Positions 2-19,903 of a stretch of DNA of 20,921 bases are shown here, in pieces. Each line of letters opens with the position of its first letter. Position 1 is the stretch's first letter. Under the pieces are notes generated by a model. That model was not told where the DNA came from. It did no database searches and worked only from the letters and a program-made list of their open reading frames with translations. The position numbers were made by a program, and so were the translations under genes. The DNA comes from a virus, in the IMG/VR virus record IMGVR_UViG_3300028864_000111, positions 1-20,921 of that record; one strand, 5' to 3'.

Positions 2-1225
2 ATGAATCTTACTGTTACGGCCGTTACAACGTCTGACACCTATTCTACTCAGCCTCAAAACGGTGGCGGGGTAGTACAATATAACTCACCTACAGCTAGC
101 TCAGGGTCAACCGGTGGTGGTCGATTCAACCAGGCACAAAATGAAGCTGTTATCAATGCCGAGCATGTTGTCCATCTAGGCTTATCTGAAGGACTAGATA
201 CAAACTGGCCTTTCGGGACGTCAGTACTAGAAACAATCTTCAAAGTATTCAAGCAAAAGGAACTTCTAGAAGATGCTGTTCTTATCTATCGTATCCAACG
301 TGCTCCAGAACGTCGAATTTTTAAGATTGACGTCGGTAATATGCCATCTCACCTTGCTATGGCTTTTGTGGAGCGAGTGAAGAACGAGGTTCACCAGCGT
401 CGTATGCCGTCACAGTCAGGAAATGGTGGCAGCATGATGGATGCCACCTATAACCCACTGTCGATGAACGAAGACTTCTTCTTCCCACAAGCAGAGAACG
501 GTAGAGGCTCTAGCGTCGACGTTCTACCAGGTGGTCAACAGTTAGGTGAAATTACAGACTTACGTTTCTTCACAAACAAGATGTTCCGCGGTCTTAGAAT
601 TCCGTCGAGCTACCTACCTACACAACCAGATGAAGCAGCAAACAATTTCAGCGATGGCAAGGTTGGAGTAGCTATGATACAAGAGTGGCGGTTTAATCAG
701 TATTGTACTAGGTTGCAGAACTTAGTTGTAGAACCGCTAAATCGCGAATTTAAGATGTTCTTACGTTTCCGTGGTATCAACATTGACAGCAGCGTTTTTG
801 ATCTTACTTTCAACGAGCCACAAAACTTCACATCGTATCGCCAAGCAGACATCGACACAGCACGAATCAATGTGTTTAGTCAGATGGAACAGATCCCATA
901 CATGTCAAAACGCTTCATGATGAAGCGTTACTTAGGCATGACTGTAGAAGAAATGCAAGAGAACGAAGAGATGTGGGCTGAGGAACACGCAGAAGCAGAA
1001 ATTAGCACAGATCAATCACCAACGTTACGAAGCGTTGGCGTTTCGGGCGGTGGAATCAGTTCTGACATAGATAACGTTTCAATGGATGGTAGTGACCTGG
1101 GCGGAGAAGACATGGGTGGTGGTGAAGGTGCCCCAGCAATGGGTGGTGAGATGGGTGGAGCACCAGCAGGCCCAGCAGCTGGTGGCGCAGCAGCGCCAGC
1201 GGGACCAAGCACTAGTGTCTTGTAA
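2..1225 (+). CDS. gp20: Portal vertex protein, gp20 family (5' partial)
   Basis: This is the C-terminal part of a T4-type portal protein, the dodecameric ring at the capsid vertex through which DNA is packaged and to which the tail attaches. The visible 407 residues carry the family's conserved core, including YRIQRAPERR at about 96-105 (T4 has YRLTRAPERR), followed by an I-D-V-G-N segment, a Met/Gln-rich stretch and a long conserved region with VVEPLNREFKMFLRFRG. T4 gp20 is 524 residues, so roughly the first 100-150 residues lie upstream of the window. The ATG at base 2 is an internal codon in this reading, not a supported start. The last ~45 residues are an unusual low-complexity tail rich in Gly, Ala, Met and Pro. 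A small conserved gene follows 32 bases later behind its own late promoter. Family assignment is firm; the start is unknown. Confidence 0.95.
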   Translation: MNLTVTAVTTSDTYSTQPQNGGGVVQYNSPTASSGSTGGGRFNQAQNEAVINAEHVVHLGLSEGLDTNWPFGTSVLETIFKVFKQKELLEDAVLIYRIQRAPERRIFKIDVGNMPSHLAMAFVERVKNEVHQRRMPSQSGNGGSMMDATYNPLSMNEDFFFPQAENGRGSSVDVLPGGQQLGEITDLRFFTNKMFRGLRIPSSYLPTQPDEAANNFSDGKVGVAMIQEWRFNQYCTRLQNLVVEPLNREFKMFLRFRGINIDSSVFDLTFNEPQNFTSYRQADIDTARINVFSQMEQIPYMSKRFMMKRYLGMTVEEMQENEEMWAEEHAEAEISTDQSPTLRSVGVSGGGISSDIDNVSMDGSDLGGEDMGGGEGAPAMGGEMGGAPAGPAAGGAAAPAGPSTSVL

Positions 1226-1244: not shown

Positions 1245-1245
1245 C

Positions 1246-1253
1246 ATAAATAC
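1246..1253 (+). promoter_or_regulatory. Late promoter ATAAATAC
   Basis: Matches the T4 late -10 box (TATAAATA) and the ATAAATAC motif repeated through this window. The next start codon is at 1258, only four bases downstream, about where transcription should begin. No Shine-Dalgarno sequence fits between. Confidence 0.75.
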
Positions 1254-1257
1254 TTTC

Positions 1258-1509
1258 ATGTATATTTCTGAGTTATTCCTACCTGAAGAAAAATCTGATG
1301 TAATCGAACCGACGCCACCTGGCTATGCTTCTGAGGAAGATGACCAGTCAACGTTGAAATTATCAGACATGAGGAAAACTCGACTTACGTTAGCACAAAT
1401 TAACAAACTTCGAATTCTTAACGACATTCGAACAGTTGAGCATAGCCAAAAAGTTAAGTCGCTAGCCGCACAATATAAGGCCCCAGCTGAAGATGGCGGA
1501 GGCATGTAG
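1258..1509 (+). CDS. Small conserved protein between gp20 and gp67-like gene
   Basis: An 83-residue protein with an acidic N-terminal third and a basic, helical segment (MRKTRLTLAQINKLRILND at about 38-56) ending in a Gly-rich tail. From memory, small proteins with an R-K-x-R-L-T-L-x-x-I-N-x-L-R signature occur directly after gp20 in many cyanophage and marine T4-like genomes, where they are usually listed as hypothetical or virion proteins. A structural or assembly role fits the position but the function is not known. The start is set by the late promoter box that ends four bases before the ATG. There is no ribosome-binding site, so the message may be leaderless. It does not overlap its neighbours. 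Confidence 0.75.
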   Translation: MYISELFLPEEKSDVIEPTPPGYASEEDDQSTLKLSDMRKTRLTLAQINKLRILNDIRTVEHSQKVKSLAAQYKAPAEDGGGM

Positions 1510-4973: not shown

Positions 4974-6149
4974 ATGTCAACATTACTAGAAAGCCGTTGG
5001 AATGAAACCAAGGAGGCCCTGTTAGAAGGTTTGCAAGGTTCACGTCGTTCGTCCATGGCTGTTATTTTAGAAAACACCCGTCGTCACTTAGCTGAAAATG
5101 CTACAGCCGGCGGTACACAAGCAGGTAACGTCGCAACATTGAATCGCGTTATTCTTCCAGTAATTCGTCGAGTTATGCCGACTGTTATTGCGAACGAAAT
5201 CGTTGGTGTTCAGCCAATGACCGGTCCAGTTGCACAGATTCACACTCTACGCGTTCGCTACGCAGACAACATGGCAGATGGCTCCGGCTATAACACCAGC
5301 GTTAAAGCAGGCGACGAAGCATTGAGCCCATTCAAGATTGCTACGGCATACTCGGGTTCGAGCGCAACAGGTCGTGCTGATAATACAGCCGCTCTTGAAG
5401 GCGTTCCAGGCAAGCGTATCAATGTGCAAATCTTGAAACAAGTTGTTGAAGCCAAAACGCGCAAACTATCAGCACGTTGGACGTTTGAAGCAGCTCAAGA
5501 TGCACAAGCTATGCACGGTCTTGATGTTGAGGCAGAAATCATGGCAGCATTAGCACAGGAAATCACGGTTGAAATCGACCAAGAAATCCTCGGTTCGTTA
5601 CGCGCACTTTCGGCAACGGAAGAAACGTATGACCAAGCAAACGTAAGTGGTACAGCTACTTTCGTTGGTGATGAGCACGCTGCTTTGGCAGTTCTTATCA
5701 ATCGCGTTGCTAACAAGATTGCACAACGCACACGTCGCGGCGCAGGTAACTGGGCAGTGGTTTCGTCAGCAGCATTGACGGTTCTTCAGTCAGCAACGAC
5801 ATCGGCTTTTGCACGCACCACAGAAGGCACTTTTGAAGCACCGACTAACACTAAGTTCGTTGGTACACTGAACAGCGCAATGAAGGTGTATGTGGACAGC
5901 TATGCAAGCGATTCGACTCCGATCTTGGTTGGTTACAAGGGTACCTCGGAAGCAGACGCAGCAGCGTTCTATTGCCCATACGTTCCGTTGATGAGCTCTG
6001 GAGTCATCCTGGATCCGAACACGTTCGAACCAGTTGTTGGCTTTATGACACGTTACGGGTATGTGGAACTCACGAATACGGCAAGTTCCTTAGGGAATGC
6101 CGGCGACTATTTGGGAGAAATTGCGATGTCGAATTTATCGTTCCAATAG
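4974..6149 (+). CDS. gp23: Major capsid protein gp23
   Basis: Major head protein of T4-like phages. Diagnostic sequence: RRVMPTVIANEIVGVQPMTGP at about 65-85, the family's NLIAYDICGVQPMTGP equivalent, followed by a TLRVRYADN segment. A predicted gp21 cleavage site lies at LAE|N (39-42); T4 gp23 is likewise trimmed at its N-terminus after an acidic residue. The conserved C-terminus has FMTRYGYVEL. At 391 residues it is much shorter than T4 gp23 (521), so insertion-domain or loop segments are probably missing. AGGAG at 4960-4964 fixes the start. A strong terminator follows 46 bases after the stop, ending the capsid operon. Confidence 0.96.
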   Translation: MSTLLESRWNETKEALLEGLQGSRRSSMAVILENTRRHLAENATAGGTQAGNVATLNRVILPVIRRVMPTVIANEIVGVQPMTGPVAQIHTLRVRYADNMADGSGYNTSVKAGDEALSPFKIATAYSGSSATGRADNTAALEGVPGKRINVQILKQVVEAKTRKLSARWTFEAAQDAQAMHGLDVEAEIMAALAQEITVEIDQEILGSLRALSATEETYDQANVSGTATFVGDEHAALAVLINRVANKIAQRTRRGAGNWAVVSSAALTVLQSATTSAFARTTEGTFEAPTNTKFVGTLNSAMKVYVDSYASDSTPILVGYKGTSEADAAAFYCPYVPLMSSGVILDPNTFEPVVGFMTRYGYVELTNTASSLGNAGDYLGEIAMSNLSFQ

Positions 6150-6223: not shown

Positions 6224-6281
6224 GGCTGAATATTCTCCAAAAAAGTTGACAATGATAACTAAAGAATGTAAGCTAAATAAT

Positions 6282-6297
6282 ATCACTGAAATGTGAT
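6282..6297 (+). repeat. Small hairpin before late promoter
   Basis: ATCAC/GTGAT stem with a 6-nt loop, eight bases before the late promoter at 6305. It is one of several short dyads found just upstream of late promoters here; it could be chance. Confidence 0.3.
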
Positions 6298-6304
6298 GTT
6301 AGTC

Positions 6305-6312
6305 ATAAATAC
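6305..6312 (+). promoter_or_regulatory. Late promoter ATAAATAC for homing endonuclease
   Basis: Same octamer as at 1246, with the same four-base gap to the start codon (6317) and no Shine-Dalgarno sequence, suggesting a leaderless message. Confidence 0.72.
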
Positions 6313-6316
6313 TATT

Positions 6317-7273
6317 ATGAAACCATACACATACCTCATTAAATTTCTACCGACAGGACGATGCTACTATGGATCGCGCTACGCTAATGTCAAGTTAAAA
6401 AGAACAGCTGAAGAAGATCTAATGTTGAAATATCCTACAAGCTGTAAGGAGATACAACAGTTAATCAAAGAATATGGATTAGAATCGTTTTCTTGGGAGG
6501 TTAGACAAAAGTTTGACACTCCGGAAGAAGTTGTTGCCTGGGAAAAGAAGGTGTTGCGCAGATGTAAAGTATTAGAGCGTCAAGACAGGTGGATGAATGG
6601 TAACATCGCTGGGCATATAATCGCAACACCTTCGGTATGTAAAAAGATTAGTGAGTTTCATAAAGACAAGCCCAAATCAGAAGACCATAAGAATAAGATC
6701 AGTGTAGCAAACAAAGGTAAAGTTAAAGGTCCTCAATCTGCAGAGCATCGGTTAAAAAACTCGTTAGCAAACTCTGGTGTCAACAATCCTATGTATGGTG
6801 TTCCTTGTTCTGAAGAAAGAGCAGCAAAGATAGGCGCAGCAAACAAAGGCAAAGTAGCCTGGAACAAAGGTGTTCCTCGCACTGAAGAGCAGAAACAAGC
6901 ACAACGAGAAAAGATGACTGGTAGAAAAATGCTACCCGAACAAGTAGCAAAGCAAGTAGCATCAAGGACAGGAAAGCCAAGATCCGAAGAAGCAAAAAAC
7001 AATATATCTAAGGCTCTAAAAGGCAAGTCTAAAGGACCGATGTCTAAAGAGGAAAAATTAAAGAGGTCAGTGGCACTCAAAGGTAAAGCAAAGCCGGAAG
7101 GATTTGGCGATAAAGTAGCATCGAGAATGAAAGAAGAATTTACAGAGAACAACCCTAACAAGCGAGAAGACCTAAAGAAATGCTGCCCTTACTGTAATCA
7201 GGTCTTTGGCCCGTCTAACTATACACGTTGGCACGGTGATAATTGTAAACTTAAAGGAGAGCAAAATGACTAG
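6317..7273 (+). CDS. GIY-YIG homing endonuclease with NUMOD3 repeats and zinc finger
   Basis: A 318-residue free-standing homing endonuclease, a selfish gene that cuts phage lacking it and spreads by repair. A divergent GIY-YIG domain covers about 1-95: YLI at 6-8, CYYGSRY at 16-22 (the YIG half) and a Glu-containing AWEKK at about 74-78. Then comes a run of NUMOD3-type DNA-binding repeats at roughly 115-265, each with a Ser-Glu-E/D-x-(K/R) block followed by a (N/L)KGK element. The C-terminus is a zinc finger with Cys290, Cys293, His306 and Cys310 (CCPYC...RWHGDNC). It sits directly after the major capsid gene, a common site for such genes in T4-like phages. Start: the ATG at 6317 is four bases after the late promoter box; earlier in-frame ATGs at 6293 and 6296 lie upstream of that promoter. 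The last codons overlap the start of the next gene. Confidence 0.9.
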   Translation: MKPYTYLIKFLPTGRCYYGSRYANVKLKRTAEEDLMLKYPTSCKEIQQLIKEYGLESFSWEVRQKFDTPEEVVAWEKKVLRRCKVLERQDRWMNGNIAGHIIATPSVCKKISEFHKDKPKSEDHKNKISVANKGKVKGPQSAEHRLKNSLANSGVNNPMYGVPCSEERAAKIGAANKGKVAWNKGVPRTEEQKQAQREKMTGRKMLPEQVAKQVASRTGKPRSEEAKNNISKALKGKSKGPMSKEEKLKRSVALKGKAKPEGFGDKVASRMKEEFTENNPNKREDLKKCCPYCNQVFGPSNYTRWHGDNCKLKGEQND

Positions 7274-9258: not shown

Positions 9259-10143
9259 CTAAAATCCGCCAACAGTCAGATTGTCTGACAAATACCGGTC
9301 AATAAACTCGAACTCAGCATCACTACACACTGGCTTAACGATACTCTTCTTCGGATCTTTCGGACAAAACCAGAGTTGACCGTGCGCCTTCTTCACAACG
9401 TAGTTCCTTAGATACTTGTTATTCCCATATCCGTGTTCTAATGAACTAATCATCTGCCTTAGATACTCTGGGCTCCATTGTAACAGCTCGTCTACGTTGT
9501 TGGGGATGTAGGTTTTTTGATCTAAGTGAAAAAGGTGTGTTTCGTTTGGTGTGCCGAATATGTCTCGTAATGGTTCTCCGTTAGTCTGATGATGCCAAGG
9601 AAACGTGATGGTCGGTATCTGAAGAACGTGAGCTAAATGTGCTATCCCACCTTCGTAGCCTATCACTGCGGCGCATTGGGATTTTAAGAATTCAACAAGT
9701 TCAGGTAACTGCATCTGGACATGATTGAGAATGATTACTTTGTATCCTGCTAATGTTGCGATTGTAGTTAGATGATCGTAGATAGACTGCGAGTAATACC
9801 GGTTGTTAGGAAACACGTTGTTTGGTATATCAGATTCTAACTCTTGGGTGACATTCCCGTTGTATCTAGTTAGAACGATTACGTTCTTCTTAGATTGGGT
9901 AAGACCGACGGGAAAATACTGGCTAACAACTTTAGAAAAATCAGACGATCCTAGGGCAGTGTGATCAATGCTACTTGTAGTGAGTGAAATGTTAGGCAAA
10001 TCGAAGATAGGCAGAAGCTGTTTGTAAATCGAAGTAGATTCGTTGGTGATGATAGTTACTTGGGTATTGGCGGAGTTTATAAGACTCAGGATGTTGATAG
10101 CGGTTCCTAGTCCGACCCAAGGGTTGCATTCGACGGTAATCAT
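9259..10143 (-). CDS. GT9/heptosyltransferase-like glycosyltransferase
   Basis: The only minus-strand gene, 294 residues. The segment IGYEGGIAHLAHVLQIPTI at about 161-179 matches the nucleotide-sugar-binding end of GT9-type (ADP-heptose:LPS heptosyltransferase-like) GT-B enzymes, which have a D-G-G-x-x-H-L-A-x-x-x-x-x-P-x-(I/L) pattern. An N-terminal GLGTAINIL (11-19) fits the first Rossmann fold's Gly-rich loop. No signal peptide or membrane segment is seen, so it should act in the cytoplasm on a lipid-linked or phage-protein acceptor. It starts three bases after a minus-strand late promoter with no ribosome-binding site, and it diverges from the SGNH hydrolase gene. Overall similarity to GT9 is modest, so donor and acceptor cannot be named. 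Confidence 0.7.
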   Translation of the reverse strand: MITVECNPWVGLGTAINILSLINSANTQVTIITNESTSIYKQLLPIFDLPNISLTTSSIDHTALGSSDFSKVVSQYFPVGLTQSKKNVIVLTRYNGNVTQELESDIPNNVFPNNRYYSQSIYDHLTTIATLAGYKVIILNHVQMQLPELVEFLKSQCAAVIGYEGGIAHLAHVLQIPTITFPWHHQTNGEPLRDIFGTPNETHLFHLDQKTYIPNNVDELLQWSPEYLRQMISSLEHGYGNNKYLRNYVVKKAHGQLWFCPKDPKKSIVKPVCSDAEFEFIDRYLSDNLTVGGF

Positions 10144-10146
10144 ATG

Positions 10147-10154
10147 GTATTTAT
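10147..10154 (-). promoter_or_regulatory. Late promoter ATAAATAC (minus strand) for glycosyltransferase
   Basis: On the minus strand this reads ATAAATAC, then CAT, then the ATG at 10143. The three-base spacing and lack of a Shine-Dalgarno sequence imply a leaderless or nearly leaderless mRNA. Confidence 0.72.
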
Positions 10155-10161
10155 CTATGTG

Positions 10162-10169
10162 GTAAATAT
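10162..10169 (+). promoter_or_regulatory. Late promoter GTAAATAT for SGNH hydrolase
   Basis: Late-type box directly followed by ATGATG. The second ATG (10173) is three bases from the box, mirroring the minus-strand promoter 8 bases away. Confidence 0.62.
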
Positions 10170-10172
10170 ATG

Positions 10173-11102
10173 ATGTTCACACGTATTGTTGATTTCAGAA
10201 AAAATTCAGTAGCTCAATGGGCCCCGACTGATTCGGAGAAAAATTACCGACCAAACCAGGAGGGCGGGACGCTAAATTATTCTAAGGACGCGTTTGACTA
10301 CCAATATAATTCTGATGGATTTCGTTGCTCTGAGTTTACTGAAAAATCAGATTTTCCTATCTTATATGCCGGATGTAGTTTTACAGAAGGTATCGGCTTA
10401 CCGTTAGATCATTGTTGGCCACATTATTTTTCTGAGATAGTGAAAGAGCAACCAGGCAACGAAAATTTTACGATGCCACTGCATTCTGTAGCAGTAGGCG
10501 GAACCGGGGTCGATTTTGCAGCAGATATGATCACGAGATTTACGCCTATAGTCAAACCGAAATTGATTGTTGGATATTTTTGTAGTATGTATCGACGTGA
10601 GTTTTGTATGCAGGATTATCATCTGCAACAGTGGTTTCCTAACATAGAGACTTTGCCACCCTTTAAAAAAGAGCTGCAGAAGATATTCTCAGATCAACAA
10701 TTTGCGTTATATCAGACGTTTCGCAGCTTGCAAACGATTAGCCTTTCCGCCCAATTGCATAGGAGTAAGGCGTTTGTTTTCTTTGACGACGATACCTGGT
10801 TAACTGAGGAATTTGCTGCCCTATTCCCAGAAGTAACAATCCGACCAGTTCCTATAGTTCTTACTCCGGCTACTCGTGAGCTAGATAGCCTGCCGCTTAT
10901 GGCCAGGGATAATGCCCATCACGGTGCAAAATGGCAGCATTCTTTAGCAACGCTAATGGCTGATACTGTGATTCCGACGATTAATCCATCATATCGAACA
11001 AGATCGACGTTTCTACCACCCTTACTAACTAACCACCCACCTTCTCCTTCTCTTGCGGTTCGGGTATTGAAGGAAATACCTCGTCCATCTTGGTTGACCT
11101 AG
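10173..11102 (+). CDS. SGNH/GDSL-like hydrolase
   Basis: A 309-residue protein (310 if the ATG at 10170 is used) with the block pattern of SGNH hydrolases, a fold of esterases and sugar O-deacylases/acyltransferases. With numbering from 10170: block I GCSFTEG (68-74) with nucleophile Ser70; a VAVGGTG block (107-113) giving an oxyanion Gly; and the C-terminal D-x-x-H at Asp247/His250 in RDNAHHG. The preceding YNSDGFR (46-52) motif is typical of related phage and polysaccharide-locus proteins. No signal peptide is seen. The divergent glycosyltransferase suggests a shared role in surface-glycan modification or a glycosylated virion part, but the substrate is unknown. There is no ribosome-binding site; the promoter box ends 3 bases before this ATG. 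Confidence 0.75.
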   Translation: MFTRIVDFRKNSVAQWAPTDSEKNYRPNQEGGTLNYSKDAFDYQYNSDGFRCSEFTEKSDFPILYAGCSFTEGIGLPLDHCWPHYFSEIVKEQPGNENFTMPLHSVAVGGTGVDFAADMITRFTPIVKPKLIVGYFCSMYRREFCMQDYHLQQWFPNIETLPPFKKELQKIFSDQQFALYQTFRSLQTISLSAQLHRSKAFVFFDDDTWLTEEFAALFPEVTIRPVPIVLTPATRELDSLPLMARDNAHHGAKWQHSLATLMADTVIPTINPSYRTRSTFLPPLLTNHPPSPSLAVRVLKEIPRPSWLT

Positions 11103-11120
11103 CCTATCGCTGTTGCTACA

Positions 11121-11128
11121 ATAAATAC
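11121..11128 (+). promoter_or_regulatory. Late promoter ATAAATAC
   Basis: Exact copy of the common octamer, 18 bases before the start at 11147, with GGAG at 11136-11139 in the short leader. It may also drive metK, since no better box lies between. Confidence 0.75.
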
Positions 11129-11146
11129 TATAACTGGAGAAAGAAA

Positions 11147-11452
11147 ATGGCTGATATCGTTAGTGACGTAATGGATGATGGAACGATCCGAGTTTTTGAC
11201 CTTGATGTCTGCCAAGCCCACGCTGAAGCCATCCTTGATGAGCTATGGGAGAAGGAAGGCAAAGTCCTAAACCTTGACTACTATTCAACAGTGTTCGCTC
11301 TATTCGCAGAGACCGTCCACCACCTGACCTCTTCGGGATGGTCCACAGAAGATCTTATCTGTGCAGTGATTGATAATTCTGACGCAGACGACGTTGGCGA
11401 ATTCATTGACACGAACGACGAACGCCCAAACAGGGACGACGAGGAAGATTAA
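11147..11452 (+). CDS. Small acidic conserved phage protein
   Basis: A 101-residue acidic protein ending in a run of Asp/Glu. A central helical core, LFAETVHHLTSSGWSTEDLICAVIDNS (about 49-75), resembles a family of small cyanophage/marine myovirus proteins that I recall as hypothetical; no function is assigned. The start at 11147 is chosen over the upstream in-frame ATG (11090) because the late promoter and GGAG lie between them. The upstream option would also overlap the hydrolase gene. It precedes metK by 68 bases. Confidence 0.75.
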   Translation: MADIVSDVMDDGTIRVFDLDVCQAHAEAILDELWEKEGKVLNLDYYSTVFALFAETVHHLTSSGWSTEDLICAVIDNSDADDVGEFIDTNDERPNRDDEED

Positions 11453-11520: not shown

Positions 11521-12681
11521 ATGTCTAACGACTTCCTATTCACATCAGAATCAGTTTCAGAGGGCCACCCAGATAAGGTTGCTGATCAGATCTCGGACTC
11601 AATCCTTGACACAATTTTAGCAGTAGATCCAAAAGGGCGTGTCGCCTGTGAGACCCTTGTATCAACAGGCCTTGTGGTCATCTCAGGAGAGATCACAACT
11701 AATGCTCACATCAACTATCGCGAGGTAGTTCAGGACCGTGTTCGACGGATCGGATACACTGATTCGGAGATTGGCTTCGACTATAAATCGTGCGCTATCC
11801 TCACAGCTATCAATCGTCAATCACCAGACATCGCCCAAGGCGTGAACGAAGGCGAAGGTATTGACTTAGACCAGGGTGCCGGCGATCAGGGACTGATGTT
11901 TGGCTACGCCTGTAACGAAACACCTACTCTGATGCCATTGCCTATCTACTACGCCCACAGGCTTATGGAGAAGCAAGCCTCTGTTCGCCGAGCAGGCAAC
12001 CTGCCGTGGCTTCGCCCTGATGCTAAGAGCCAGTTATCAGTTCACTATGTTGACGGTAAGCCACAGTCGATCGACACTGTCGTCATCTCTACGCAACACA
12101 ATCCGGACGTATCGCACGCTCAGATCGAAGAAGCAGTGATCGAGCTCATCATCAAGCCAATCCTACCACCAGAACTGCTCACTAGTAAGACACGATACCT
12201 CATCAACCCGACTGGGCGTTTTGTTGTAGGCGGACCAGCCGGCGACTGTGGTCTCACTGGGCGCAAGATCATTGTTGACTCATATGGTGGTACTGCTCGT
12301 CACGGTGGTGGTGCATTCTCTGGCAAAGATCCGTCGAAGGTCGACCGTTCTGCAGCCTACGCAGCACGATGGGTGGCGAAGAACATCGTAGCCGCAGGTC
12401 TCGCTGATCGCTGCGAAGTGCAGGTAGCCTACGCGATTGGAGTGGCGAAGCCAGTCTCCTTGATGGTAGATACCTTTGGGACCGGTAAAATCTCAGATGA
12501 GCGGATCGCCGCAGCGGTGGTTGCTACCTTTGACCTCCGTCCTAAGGCGATTATCAAAGATCTCAACCTGCTTCGACCGATCTACACTAAGACCGCAGCC
12601 TATGGCCACTTCGGACGCGAACTGCCGGAATTCACTTGGGAGATGACCGATAAGGTCGACTTCCTCCGCTCATTCCTGTAA
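11521..12681 (+). CDS. metK: S-adenosylmethionine synthetase (MetK)
   Basis: Makes S-adenosylmethionine from ATP and methionine in the cytoplasm (EC 2.5.1.6). The 386 residues match the usual bacterial length (E. coli 384). Signatures are all present: EGHPDK (14-19) with His16 and Asp18; GAGDQG (119-124); RPDAKSQ (165-171); the [16 protein letters not shown] block (262-277) with Lys269, Lys273 and Asp275; and Arg248/Lys249. No truncation or missing key residue is visible, so it is probably active. The N-terminus ([21 protein letters not shown]) and overall sequence look most like betaproteobacterial MetK from memory, pointing to host capture. It has a GGAG 12 bases upstream, just after a hairpin. 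It lies among virion genes, suggesting late expression; SAM may supply phage methylation or offset host SAM depletion. Confidence 0.96.
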
Positions 12682-14843: not shown

Positions 14844-17800
14844 ATGGCAATTGGACGCGTAGCAGGACCGTTACTTTATTCAGATTTAGATCGACAAGGG
14901 GTCGATTTACAGTTCAGCACGGGCAACCAACCATTGCTCTACTTAGACTTTGCTAGCTTCCGAGCAGCAATCAACGCCGACACGCACGATACCATCGAAA
15001 CCTTCACAGTTAACGGAAGTTCGTTATTGTCAGATATAAAGATTGATGGTACAACGATATCATCAGTTACTGATATGACGATTCATGCTACTGGTGACAT
15101 TCGTATAGGCGGAGCAGATCAAGTAAAAATCTACGGCGGGTCAAACAATTTCATAATGACCACTGACGGCAATGGTAATCTGTCCTGGCAGGATATTAAT
15201 GCCCTAGCAGACGAGTTGAATTTAACAGCTACTAATATCAACTTAGGTACGACTACTGACGGATCGGTTGTTGATTATTCAGCATACAGATACTGGAATG
15301 CAGATACCACGATTGCTGATGCAGTTGACAATCTAAATCAGGTCATGCTTAACGTTTACCAAGGCACGTTTGTTGGTCAAGCAGACTTCATAGCAAACGT
15401 AAGTTCGGGCCCTAGCCCTCTTACAGTCTCGTTCACAGCAAATAACGTGGTTGGTAATCCCACTGAATACCTTTGGGAGTTTGGGGACGGTTCTACTAGC
15501 ACTGATCTAAATCCGACATACACGTACGACTATGCTAGCGGTGGTCAGTTTTCGGTATATTTCAAAGCCAGTAACCCGTTAGGCACTCGAGCTGCACAAG
15601 GTAGACTAGGTGATGGACAATTAGCTCAAGGTAGCTATGCTGATTCATTGAAACAAAATTTTATCACGGTTTACACTCCGACACCAACTGCGTCCTTTAC
15701 TGTTACCCAGTCGATTGATACTGGTGGTACAGTAACATTTGAAAACACTAGCTTCTATGGATCTAGTTATTCAGTCTATTGGGGAGATGGCACTAGCTCA
15801 GCTGTGATAGACAATGCGTCTCCTGGGAGCCCAGGAAATGGACCGCTAACACACACCTACACTAACGCCAGCGGCGACGAAAGGTTTTCGGTAACGTTAG
15901 CAACATTTAGCGCCACTGCTGGCCCAGGCGGAGTGACTACAACATCTGCACCAACGTTTGTTTATGTTTATAGCACTCATACACCACAGTTTATTGCCAA
16001 CAAGACCGAGGGAAATAATCAGCATTCTACTATCCCGCATGGCTTAGTAGTCACGTTTACGAATATCACCGGAACTGCACCAGGAGAGACTCTTTTATTT
16101 GCAAATAACCGATACCGTTGGGTATGGGGTGATGGAACAACGTCTTTTGTTGATATCGGTTCCGGTAACGCAGGCGATACAACTCAGTTAATTCAACATG
16201 CGTTTGCATTAGTAGATCCTAAGGTAGAGCAAACATTTACAGTGACGTTAGAGGTCATTAACGGTCATTCATCATCACCTTTCGTTAGCGCATCGTGGCC
16301 AGTCACTGTTCATCCAGCCCCAACATCGTTGTTTAGCGGAATCTTCGCAACAGCCAGTGACAGGACCGGGGATACAGCGCAGACTGGGTACTTATTCACT
16401 GATCTTCTAGGCCGAAATCGTAGCGCAGCAACATTTACTAATCAGTCAATAAATGCTGACGTGTCGACATGGACATTTGGCGATAGCACAACGGCTGGCC
16501 CACTTGTAGATAGTGACGCAGGTGGTACAGGCGGAGCCACGTTAGCTCATTCTTATTCGAGCGTTGGACCATTCTCTGTATCACTATTGGCTCATGGTCC
16601 GTCTAGCATCAACGCTAGTGACGATACCTTAGTTAAACCAAACTATTTGACAGTGCTATCACCGCCATCACCACCAGCTGGCTTGAGCTCAAAAGCAATA
16701 TCGTTGACTAATGTTGGTACCACACCTTTACTTGTGGCTAATGCAACCAACCATACAGTTCCATCAACTATGCCGACCCCAGGAACAGCAGTGACACGTA
16801 TCACTACAGTGAATCCAGTAGCAACCTCCGTAGCCCAAGATGCTTATAATGCGTCATCGGGTGATATATATGCGATCATCAACGGAACGCCGGAAGCAGT
16901 GGTTCCACTAAGTGGTGCTGACGAGACCGGTACTTACGGTTCGTTAATAATCACAGCAGACCGAGATGCCCATGTGGTATCGCCTGCTATTTATCCATCT
17001 GCCTTCTACTCAGTAGTGAGCGCTAAGATATCAAAAACAAACAGCACTGTTCCAGTAGGCTTTAACTCTTATCAAATCGGCCACTCTACATCTGGTAATA
17101 CCAACGCCTTAAAATTTGTTAAAGACGATGTGATCCTGCCACCAACGTTAGATATTTCTTCTGCTGTGGCTAGCACTACGAATCTTGGCTCACCGCGATA
17201 CATCTCCGGAGTACCATACTTTAACACCGGCGGGACTATCGCAGTCTCGGGCATTACAGCAGGTGACTGGATTGGCCAGACCTATCTAGGCTCTACTACG
17301 CCGATGAATGTAACCCCGGCGAGTTCGATTGAAGGCACAGGATCAATAATCGCATCACAAAGCAAAACCTACGCTAACATTGATAATCTAGGCGGTTCGT
17401 TCTTAGCATTAGGTATACCACTAGCTGATACAGGTAAGACTTCTGCTTCTCCGTACACGTTAGGTTCTATCCCAGTTACGGTTAACGGGGCAGTCGCTGC
17501 AACCAGTCGAGTGGCATTGGCATTATCGAACGTCAACGGAACCAGCACCCTTGTAACTCTGCCGACACTAATCAACGTCTACGCCATCCCGATTGCAGGG
17601 TTCGATGAAACCTCGATCCCAGTTAGCCCGACGTTGGGAGGAACCTACACAGACAACGGTAAGCGAATTTTCGTTAGTGGTGCATCTGGAGCACATCCAA
17701 TTCTATCGTCAACGACAGATTATTTTAGCAATTCACCGTTCATTGGTGCGATCAACATTGAGGGTACTGACGAAGCAGTCGTCCGTTATGGGACCTTAGC

Positions 17801-18245
17801 CCACAACGTGATCGATTATTCAACCTACCTCCCAGCAGGACCGAACTGCTCTGGCAGAACAGGACCACAGTATTTCCGCTTCGCCTTCAGAAGGACAACT
17901 ATGGCGAATTTCACCGTCACCTTCACTGGTAAGATTTCTGGTATGATGATCGCTGCACCAGCAACGCAGATCGATGCTACCTCCACCTTAGACGGATGGC
18001 TAGATGCTACCTTAGTCTACGCTGGCGCCGGTGTCCCAGGAGCCTGGACAGCATCAGGCGGTAACGGATCCAACGGATGCGCGAAAACTGCTGGTGACGT
18101 AGTACCTACTGGCCAGATCGTAACGAATAAGGCCTGCAAGTTGACACTAGGTAGTGAAAATTCGAGTAACGCATATAAGAATGAAATTATAGTAAGCATC
18201 GCCTTGAATGCTGGCGATAGCATCACTGCAATCAGTATAAGTTAG
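14844..18245 (+). CDS. Large virion structural protein with four PKD-like domains
   Basis: At 1133 residues this is the largest product in the window, probably a tail-fibre or adhesin component. Residues 1-55 have a marine-phage virion motif (GRVAGPLLYSDLDRQGVDLQF). A beta-helix-like DIKIDGTTISSVTDMTI (64-80) follows, shared with the 18254 gene. Four PKD-type Ig-like domains, marked by the W-x-(F/W)-G-D-G/S motif, lie at about 183-275, 281-375, 380-490 and 495-605 (WEFGDG 211-216, VYWGDG 311-316, WVWGDG 426-431, WTFGDS 543-548). The rest is beta-rich; YISGVPYFNTGGTIAV and the closing segment (QYFRFAFRRTTMANFTV, GWLDATLVYAGAGVPG) match virion proteins of cyanophages/pelagiphages from memory. 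No signal peptide. PKD domains in virions usually support contact with carbohydrate or the host surface. The next gene starts 8 bases after its stop. Confidence 0.88.
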   Translation: MAIGRVAGPLLYSDLDRQGVDLQFSTGNQPLLYLDFASFRAAINADTHDTIETFTVNGSSLLSDIKIDGTTISSVTDMTIHATGDIRIGGADQVKIYGGSNNFIMTTDGNGNLSWQDINALADELNLTATNINLGTTTDGSVVDYSAYRYWNADTTIADAVDNLNQVMLNVYQGTFVGQADFIANVSSGPSPLTVSFTANNVVGNPTEYLWEFGDGSTSTDLNPTYTYDYASGGQFSVYFKASNPLGTRAAQGRLGDGQLAQGSYADSLKQNFITVYTPTPTASFTVTQSIDTGGTVTFENTSFYGSSYSVYWGDGTSSAVIDNASPGSPGNGPLTHTYTNASGDERFSVTLATFSATAGPGGVTTTSAPTFVYVYSTHTPQFIANKTEGNNQHSTIPHGLVVTFTNITGTAPGETLLFANNRYRWVWGDGTTSFVDIGSGNAGDTTQLIQHAFALVDPKVEQTFTVTLEVINGHSSSPFVSASWPVTVHPAPTSLFSGIFATASDRTGDTAQTGYLFTDLLGRNRSAATFTNQSINADVSTWTFGDSTTAGPLVDSDAGGTGGATLAHSYSSVGPFSVSLLAHGPSSINASDDTLVKPNYLTVLSPPSPPAGLSSKAISLTNVGTTPLLVANATNHTVPSTMPTPGTAVTRITTVNPVATSVAQDAYNASSGDIYAIINGTPEAVVPLSGADETGTYGSLIITADRDAHVVSPAIYPSAFYSVVSAKISKTNSTVPVGFNSYQIGHSTSGNTNALKFVKDDVILPPTLDISSAVASTTNLGSPRYISGVPYFNTGGTIAVSGITAGDWIGQTYLGSTTPMNVTPASSIEGTGSIIASQSKTYANIDNLGGSFLALGIPLADTGKTSASPYTLGSIPVTVNGAVAATSRVALALSNVNGTSTLVTLPTLINVYAIPIAGFDETSIPVSPTLGGTYTDNGKRIFVSGASGAHPILSSTTDYFSNSPFIGAINIEGTDEAVVRYGTLAHNVIDYSTYLPAGPNCSGRTGPQYFRFAFRRTTMANFTVTFTGKISGMMIAAPATQIDATSTLDGWLDATLVYAGAGVPGAWTASGGNGSNGCAKTAGDVVPTGQIVTNKACKLTLGSENSSNAYKNEIIVSIALNAGDSITAISIS

Positions 18246-18253
18246 GGGTAAAA

Positions 18254-19903
18254 ATGACGATTAGTGTTAACCAGCAAGTTGACTTTTTATGGAAGAAGAT
18301 TGGATTCGGGGTAGCCAAGACTGACGTACCTTCAATCAAGGACGCTACTAATGAAAGTATAATCAGCTCCCCATTTATCCCTGGCCATAAAATTTGGGCA
18401 GATGCTATCTTAGTTCCGCCAGTTAAACCTGCAGTAACCTCGGCAGTCGTTCATATTCATGCGCAAAATACTAATTCAGCATTAGAGTGTACGATGGACA
18501 TCACCTCTACACCGTATCGCACCTGGTTTACCGGATTTCAAGATTGGATTCCTATCGAATTTGGATCAACATACCAGGTGAAGGTGTTCTTAGCTCCAAC
18601 CGGAAGCTCTACACCAGAAACAACTGGTATCCAACTCTATGCAGCGGGAACAAACAACGACGACGAATGGTATTTTGATTACGAGGCTGGAGTCCTTAAC
18701 TTCATCGGCACAACCCTGCCGGCCCAGACCTGGATTGGGAAGAAAATATTTGTTTGCGGCGCTAGATACGTAGGCATTAAGGGTATGAGTCAATCTGCTT
18801 CGTCGCTCATAGGTAATATCACTATTTCAGGCGATACAATATCGTCCATCAACGATTTATACATTGCACCAGCCACAGGAAATATTAACATCTCTGGGGC
18901 AACGATCCAAAACGCAGCCTACCCGACGATGCCAACTGACGTTGCTACGTCGCAGTATGTTATCGACGAAATTTTAGCATTGCACCCGAACACAATTTAT
19001 CAAGGTGATTCGATTCTTCGGATGAGCGACCCAACAGGTAACGCCGGTGTGCTGACGTTGCACATGGACGGAAGCTTAGTTTGGTCAGTGACAGGTGCAG
19101 GTACTACCTTAGGTGATATCACTATCAATGGCGATACTATCTCGTCGATGAACGACATTCACATTGCACCGGCTGCCGATAAGGTCATCATTGCAGATTA
19201 TTCAACAGCGTTAGGCATGCCAGCCGGAACTAGTGCAGAAAGACCGCCAGCACCACAACTAGGGTTCACACGATATAACACTAGCTTAGGATCTCTAGAA
19301 TGGTACAACGGTACTGACTGGGCAGGCCCGCAATCGTCAATCACTAGCCAGGTTCTTACAGGTGATGGTGTAGCGACGAATTTCAATCTTACACAATCGA
19401 CTCACCAAAATAACATCCTCGTCACGATTCAAGGTGTAACGCAGGTTCCGGGTGTATCATACACGGTCGCTGGTAGCGTGATCACATTCAATGAAGCACC
19501 AGTGATGAATGAAAAGGTCGAAATACGATTCATCAGCCAGTCAGTAACCCCGACGTTGCCTATCGGACAGCTAACAGACACGGCAGTGATCGATCCACCA
19601 CCGCATATTGTGAACATGAACAACGTAGTCTTAGATTCGTTCCCGATAGCATCATATCGCGCAGCAAAATATGTCTTATCAATCGTAGCCGCTGATGGAA
19701 ACGCTCAAATGGCCGAGATCCTTATGACCCACAACGGGACGACCCAAGCCTTGTGTCAAGTAACTTCTACTGATATGACCGCCGGCGGGACGACCGTCCT
19801 GACCTATGTAGCACAAATTGCTTTAGGATCCTGTGAGCTTCTAGCGATTAGCACCACCCCTCTCACAACAGTTAAGATGCAGAAAACCTACTTCGTCCTT
19901 TAA
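18254..19903 (+). CDS. Virion structural/fibre protein with repeated modules
   Basis: A 549-residue structural protein. Its N-terminus (NQQVDFLWKKIGFGVAKTD, about 6-24) is shared with cyanophage-type virion proteins as I recall them. A beta-sandwich-like middle is followed by two near-copies of an element, NITISGDTISSINDLYIAP (188-206) and DITINGDTISSMNDIHIAP (288-306). A third copy is in the PKD protein (64-80). The second half contains YNGTDW (351-356) and TGDGVATNF (369-377), also found in the protein at 14375. The C-terminal ~110 residues (from PPPHIVNMNNVVLDSF) are beta-rich. A GGGG-type ribosome-binding site lies 8 bases after the previous stop. Host-contact or baseplate role is inferred. 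Confidence 0.82.
   Translation: MTISVNQQVDFLWKKIGFGVAKTDVPSIKDATNESIISSPFIPGHKIWADAILVPPVKPAVTSAVVHIHAQNTNSALECTMDITSTPYRTWFTGFQDWIPIEFGSTYQVKVFLAPTGSSTPETTGIQLYAAGTNNDDEWYFDYEAGVLNFIGTTLPAQTWIGKKIFVCGARYVGIKGMSQSASSLIGNITISGDTISSINDLYIAPATGNINISGATIQNAAYPTMPTDVATSQYVIDEILALHPNTIYQGDSILRMSDPTGNAGVLTLHMDGSLVWSVTGAGTTLGDITINGDTISSMNDIHIAPAADKVIIADYSTALGMPAGTSAERPPAPQLGFTRYNTSLGSLEWYNGTDWAGPQSSITSQVLTGDGVATNFNLTQSTHQNNILVTIQGVTQVPGVSYTVAGSVITFNEAPVMNEKVEIRFISQSVTPTLPIGQLTDTAVIDPPPHIVNMNNVVLDSFPIASYRAAKYVLSIVAADGNAQMAEILMTHNGTTQALCQVTSTDMTAGGTTVLTYVAQIALGSCELLAISTTPLTTVKMQKTYFVL

Follow-up and report, generated by a model that had tools for sequence, protein, structure and literature searches.

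A candidate divergent pair of leaderless T4-type late promoters between two cargo genes of a T4-type phage

In a T4-type phage known from an IMG/VR record, a glycosyltransferase-like gene and an SGNH-like hydrolase gene are arranged back to back, and their start codons (10143 on the minus strand and, most likely, 10173 on the plus strand) are separated by 29 bp. How can both genes be transcribed and translated from so short a region? The window, meaning the whole stretch of DNA analyzed here, is identical with the record and comprises 20,921 bases. It contains T4-like gp20 and gp23 genes (Table 1), and other T4-like genes lie around both of them. Relatives with a capsid protein 79–88% identical include contigs of 318–374 kb, so this phage probably belongs to the jumbo phages. 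The window itself is a fragment, and the search for gp55 covered the contigs of 11 relatives. Homologues matching T4 gp55 are present in 10 of them, nine with E values of 8.5e-7 to 6.5e-6 and one (contig G001) weakly at 0.006. Both open reading frames described in the original prediction are present, and the glycosyltransferase-like gene is the only minus-strand gene of the window with supporting evidence.

The two opposing late boxes that had been predicted between the genes, GATAAATA and GGTAAATA, are also present, both inside the 29 bp. They show one and two departures from TATAAATA, respectively; neither box begins with T, and at −12 the plus box carries G instead of A. Simulation of the region with a Markov model gave a chance probability of approximately 0.001 per side for a box so placed, and boxes on both sides together occurred in none of 200,000 simulations. 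The boxes had been described as lying 3 bases from the start codons. They are indeed close, but the spacing is 4 nt, provided that the second ATG of the hydrolase frame is used. This second ATG (10173) is most likely the start, because it is placed 4 nt from the box, compared with 1 nt for the first ATG (10170). The N-terminus of the hydrolase is alignable with its homologue in L024 from about residue 10. The 7-bp inverted repeat enclosing the region, to which a role in the shared promoter had been attributed, is real as a sequence, but at least one such repeat is expected by chance with P = 0.21 in the Markov model of the region, and we rejected it as a regulator site. Of the 81 loci, the window alone has an outward-facing pair of boxes separated by 5 bp; near-identical box pairs were found elsewhere once whole genomes were examined.

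Table 1 Features of the divergent region, of other late genes in the window, and of the cargo slot in relatives
Feature	Position	Strand	Remarks
gp20 portal	2-1225		T4-like
gp67-like head gene, ATG 1258	1245-1509	+	CATAAATA at 1245-1252, 5 nt upstream; conserved in the clade
gp23 major capsid protein	4974-6149		T4-like
NUMOD3/GIY-YIG homing endonuclease	6304-7273	+	CATAAATA at 6304-6311, 5 nt before in-frame ATG 6317
Glycosyltransferase-like gene, 294 aa	9259-10143	-	Predicted leaderless late mRNA
7-bp inverted repeat ATCATAT/ATATGAT	10139-10174		Arms 10139-10145 and 10168-10174; judged incidental
T4-type late box GATAAATA	10155-10148	-	4 nt (CCAT) before ATG 10143
Spacer, 5 bp	10156-10160		Between the upstream edges of the outward-facing boxes
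T4-type late box GGTAAATA	10161-10168	+	4 nt to ATG 10173, 1 nt to ATG 10170
SGNH-like hydrolase ORF, 310 aa	10170-11102	+	Opens at the first ATG, 10170
SGNH-like hydrolase gene, 309 aa	10173-11102	+	From the second ATG; predicted leaderless late mRNA
Contrast gene of ordinary late form, ATG 11147	11120-11452	+	AATAAATA at 11120-11127, 19-nt leader, GGAG
TPR repeat protein with GT9-like C-terminal part	L064:9144-10334	-	In the slot of the window's glycosyltransferase
TPR repeat protein with GT9-like C-terminal part	L079:13140-14345	-	In the slot of the window's glycosyltransferase
Chitinase-like gene	L007	-	Slot behind gp23
Fatty-acid desaturase	L020		Slot behind gp23
Radical SAM/B12-binding protein	L012:12006-13913		Cargo behind gp23

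Late boxes of T4 start at −13 (PMC2988020), and gp55 reads the adenines at −12, −9, and −8 (PMC7892883). With an 8-bp box, the last base is then −6, so that the A of an ATG placed 5 nt after the box is at +1. The position of the boxes predicts the same paired RNA starts, near 10143 and 10173, as had been proposed earlier. The original prediction had missed that boxes so near to the ATG would leave no leader and no Shine-Dalgarno sequence; within 20 nt before either start, no Shine-Dalgarno sequence was found. We propose that the 29 bp constitute a divergent pair of leaderless T4-type late promoters serving two cargo genes, and we estimate the probability of this reading at roughly 75%. Two gp55-dependent late promoters, each with one 8-bp box, would start RNA on the A of the ATG or one base away from it, and the mRNA of each gene would be leaderless, lack a Shine-Dalgarno sequence, and be translated from its 5′-terminal AUG. 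A polymerase occupies much more than 5 bp, so that one polymerase would cover both boxes and transcription of the two genes would alternate, not run simultaneously. Against this reading, the spacing here is 4 nt whereas the commoner value in the clade is 5, so that, without a shift of the start by one base, the exact +1 would be base two of the ATG. The departures of both boxes from TATAAATA also count against it, as does the alternative ATG of the hydrolase, 1 nt from the plus box.

Within the window, the leaderless form without a Shine-Dalgarno sequence is seen in four late genes (the gp67-like gene at 1258, the endonuclease gene at 6317, and the two divergent genes), and six late genes have a box 19–32 nt upstream, with a Shine-Dalgarno sequence in all six. 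The open reading frame of the homing endonuclease, directly behind gp23 (6293-7273), opens with GTG at 6293. Its likely start is ATG 6317, which agrees with the N-termini of its relatives and would make this gene leaderless as well.

The arrangement of a box directly at the ATG appears to be a recurrent class of late genes in the clade, a point that was also absent from the original prediction. Across 80 related loci or contigs and the window, 37 of 245 NATAAATA boxes (15%) have an ATG exactly 5 nt behind them, a count that, like those that follow, includes many homologous genes of related phages and not only independent events. An ATG at 3, 4, 6, or 7 nt is found behind 7, 8, 2, and 3 boxes, respectively. 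In a control with 20 permutations of the same letters, 0.4–4.7% of the motifs had an ATG at 5 nt. A second, broad peak of ATGs at 17–26 nt behind NATAAATA corresponds to the ordinary leadered class. The reading frames behind [AG]TAAATA boxes were also inspected, a frame of at least 50 aa being counted as open. Such a frame is opened by 13 of 14 ATGs at 4 nt and 44 of 48 at 5 nt (57 of 62 together), compared with 3 of 31 at 0–3 nt and 13 of 40 at 6–12 nt. At 4–5 nt, the open frames across the clade start with ATG in 57 cases, with TTG in two, and with GTG in none, and this near-absence of GTG and TTG is expected of leaderless translation. A Shine-Dalgarno-like word precedes only 6 of the 57 genes at 4–5 nt, versus 56 of 122 in the class at 17–30 nt, and all 44 genes of the 5-nt class have a T or C immediately before the ATG.

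The gp67-like gene behind gp20 illustrates the conservation of this arrangement. A profile search found it in 52 members of the clade, and [AG]TAAATA stands 4–5 nt before the conserved Met in 32 of them and 6–8 nt before it in 5 more, while most of the other members have CTAAATA or TTAAATA in the position of the box. The box is kept in the 32 members though the surrounding sequence varies. In Phosso and Vibrio phage 2.275.O, the orthologous gene is preceded by a Shine-Dalgarno sequence instead, and a search for gp67 among cultured phages found nothing. In the whole contigs of 12 relatives, ATAAATA-N5-ATG occurs at 43 sites, compared with 10 for the reversed control and 6 for the N9 spacing. 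Of 40 N5 sites inspected, 34 lead into a frame of 50 aa or more, and a further two begin similar short ORFs. The families that recur at N5 sites across contigs are gp67-like, gp25-like, nucleotidyltransferase-like, and GIY-YIG-type endonuclease genes, the names other than gp67 being our own reading of the proteins. The enrichment is uneven among relatives: G003 and G010 have no site at 5 nt, and some relatives prefer 4 nt, as does G001, the contig of L004, with ten N4 sites. One leaderless-form gene (L124, on the contig of L005) encodes a product that seems to resemble a family-17 type glycosyltransferase.

The pattern extends to a cultured phage. Pelagibacter phage HTVC008M has nine ATAAATA-N5-ATG sites, compared with one reversed, and all nine ATGs (at 6280, 7562, 16007, 18916, 19456, 31132, 49760, 75559, and 142360) are CDS starts in an annotation made by others; the genes include those for a CsgF-like protein, the DNA end protector, the tail tube cap, and a baseplate wedge. 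PA5oct has eight sites versus four reversed. No excess of 5-nt sites was found in syn9, P-SSM2, KVP40, phiM12, Aeh1, Phosso, or Vibrio phage 2.275.O. None of the 65 NATAAATA boxes of T4 is followed by an open frame of at least 50 aa at 0–11 nt, and none of the T4 matches at 5 nt opens a 50-aa frame or is located at a CDS start. The candidate promoters described here thus share with the T4 late promoter (TATAAATA, dependent on gp55, gp33, and gp45) the box, the role in late genes, the use of either strand, and gp55 homologues in the relatives of the phage. They differ in that T4 has the ATG at least 12 nt behind NATAAATA wherever a frame of at least 50 aa follows, whereas the distance here is 4–5 nt and leaves no leader. 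The late promoters of cyanophages also use NATAAATA (PMC2984593), but in syn9 and P-SSM2 boxes 5 nt from an ATG are not above the reversed control. Leaderless mRNAs of bacteria and phages, such as those of mycobacteria (PMC4633059), are similar in the predicted 5′-terminal AUG, the lack of a Shine-Dalgarno sequence, and the near-exclusive use of ATG; the class predicted here from sequence differs in being tied to a phage late sigma-like factor and in comprising only part of the late genes. A search of mainly non-subscription literature found no paper on leaderless T4-type late genes.

Divergent pairs of this kind also occur elsewhere. At 150978-151010 of G001, a leaderless-form pair, its boxes separated by 3 bp and each 4 nt from its ATG, lies between a gene whose 160-aa product looks to us like a small terminase and one for a PP-loop-like protein (296 aa). 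The boxes of a second pair on the same contig (34502-34543) are 12 bp apart and serve two endonuclease-like genes. In HTVC008M (18914-18945, locus L137), the minus box TATAAATA abuts the plus box TCTAAATA, each 5 nt from an ATG, and the genes that start at 18916 (minus) and 18943 (plus) encode the DNA end protector and a head closure protein.

The strongest arguments for the leaderless reading are the almost complete openness of the frames at 4–5 nt, the annotation of HTVC008M, and the absence of the pattern from T4. The boxes could be real late promoters while translation relies on longer RNAs started upstream, the near boxes being weak or making untranslated RNAs internal to genes. The exact T4 spacing, which puts +1 one base inside the ATG at 4 nt, would suit this explanation, but a longer RNA is no help to starts that have no Shine-Dalgarno sequence before them, the next NNTAAATA box on the minus strand upstream of the glycosyltransferase-like gene is 1.4 kb away at 11523, and by-products would not be expected to have open frames behind 57 of 62 ATGs; we regard it as unlikely. 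It is less probable still that the AT-rich stretch is an element of translation, such as an A/U-rich standby site or an S1-binding site, and not a promoter. A/U-rich sequence near the AUG can aid initiation. Against this explanation, the order ATAAATA is specific, with no peak in any of the 20 permutations, the same box also serves leadered genes at 17–30 nt, and the relatives have gp55 homologues. That the boxes and their spacing are a coincidence in AT-rich DNA is very improbable: the 7-bp palindrome is indeed at the level of coincidence, but the simulations speak otherwise for the boxes on each side and on both, and a similar geometry is found in relatives.

Both genes would be late cargo, placed in a variable slot that separates the major capsid gene from the fibre genes. 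The region behind gp23, up to the fibre-like genes, is different in almost all relatives, where it contains GDSL hydrolases, homing endonucleases, and assorted cargo (Table 1), and this slot is a hot spot for cargo. A unit of a protein of approximately 328 aa and a GDSL hydrolase recurs behind gp23 in L005, L009, L040, and L045. The 328-aa protein gave no match in Pfam and PDB searches; an HITEKTF motif gives it a GT10-type look, which we note as a lead only. The glycosyltransferase and the hydrolase of the window had been proposed to form a self-contained module. We rejected the pair as a mobile unit: searches of IMG/VR, GTDB contigs, and the phage collection gave no homologue of the glycosyltransferase, and homologues of the hydrolase are located directly behind gp23 in L024 and L047 without it. 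Glycan-modifying cargo is thus a theme of the slot, and the pair in the window is a local combination. Behind the pair lies a full-length S-adenosylmethionine synthetase gene (metK-like, 11521-12681; Pfam E 2.4e-70, C-terminal domain), whose GC content of 0.51–0.54 is above that of the preceding cargo. A fibre-like protein of 1133 aa (14844-18245) has homologues in relatives that are alignable only in part, which suggests modular exchange.

The assignment of the hydrolase to the SGNH type, as originally predicted, is fairly well supported. Family-model searches gave no direct family match for the protein itself, while the homologue in L047 matches Lipase_GDSL_2 (E 8.6e-6). In a low-confidence structure model (pLDDT 42.7), all 13 PDB matches at E ≤ 0.001 in Foldseek are SGNH esterases or TesA (best E 3.7e-5), and the hydrolase profile A1 matches SGNH chains at E values of 0.004–0.1. 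Block I (GCSFTEG) is present, and its nucleophile Ser is invariant in three homologues; block V is present as D-x-x-H (ARDNAHHG) with invariant Asp and His. Block III (GxND) is absent and is replaced by a strand followed by R-x-E, and because its Asn is missing we call the protein SGNH-like, not a proven member. When its profile was compared with that of the L009 GDSL family, blocks I–III aligned in register but the score was not significant. In summary, the protein resembles the SGNH/GDSL hydrolases of the TesA type in blocks I and V, the Gly of block II, and its fold matches, and it differs from them in lacking GxND and in having long N- and C-terminal extensions.

The assignment of the other protein to GT9 is only weakly supported. 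Residues 143–180 match the C-terminal motif of GT9 in Pfam (E 0.0095) and in the NCBIfam model TIGR02193 (E 0.0017), both below the cut-off; the score for PF01075 is 15.7 bits against a cut-off of 22, and we rejected clear membership in GT9. The structure model is of low confidence (pLDDT 41.5), and its best Foldseek match is the heptosyltransferase TibC (E 0.012). Similarity to the GT9 heptosyltransferases WaaC and TibC lies in the C-terminal motif GxxHLAxxLxIPTI and the best fold matches. The sub-threshold scores are a difference, and a possible second one is the N-terminal glycine loop, which in a weak alignment reads GLGT compared with GLGD, with its Asp, in the TPR-GT9 proteins of relatives. 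The alignment to these proteins in L064 and L079 was poor and was left out of the modelling. The protein is probably a GT-B-like, heptosyltransferase-like enzyme and not a proven member of GT9.

The products of the pair most likely act on glycans, either those of the virion fibre or capsid or those of the host envelope. An action on the envelope, by which LPS or O-antigen would be altered and competing phages excluded, is a possibility that we hold only tentatively against decoration of the virion. Heptosyltransferase-like matches and an esterase-like fold suit LPS modification, and glycosyltransferase-like and hydrolase genes recur in the slot, but late timing and the location between capsid and fibre genes fit modification of the virion at least equally.

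We consider it rather probable that at least two T4-type lineages, the uncultured jumbo clade and HTVC008M, use one promoter type for both leadered late genes with a Shine-Dalgarno sequence and leaderless late genes, with a unit of promoter and start codon of approximately 16 bp. This putative unit would serve core genes (gp67-like, gp25-like, and gp48), cargo, and homing endonucleases, and could be packed back to back into less than 30 bp. A pelagimyophage study reported that published methods failed on the late promoters of these phages (PMC7029224), and boxes located on start codons might explain the failure. The rule of a box, 4–5 nt, and an ATG would correct start-codon calls and late-promoter predictions, and the reading is directly testable in the cultured phage HTVC008M. 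If it is true, a short, self-contained signal would allow cargo genes to establish themselves on either strand with no need of a ribosome-binding site, and a class of late phage mRNAs without leaders would follow a leaderless route of translation alongside the Shine-Dalgarno-led translation of the infected cell.
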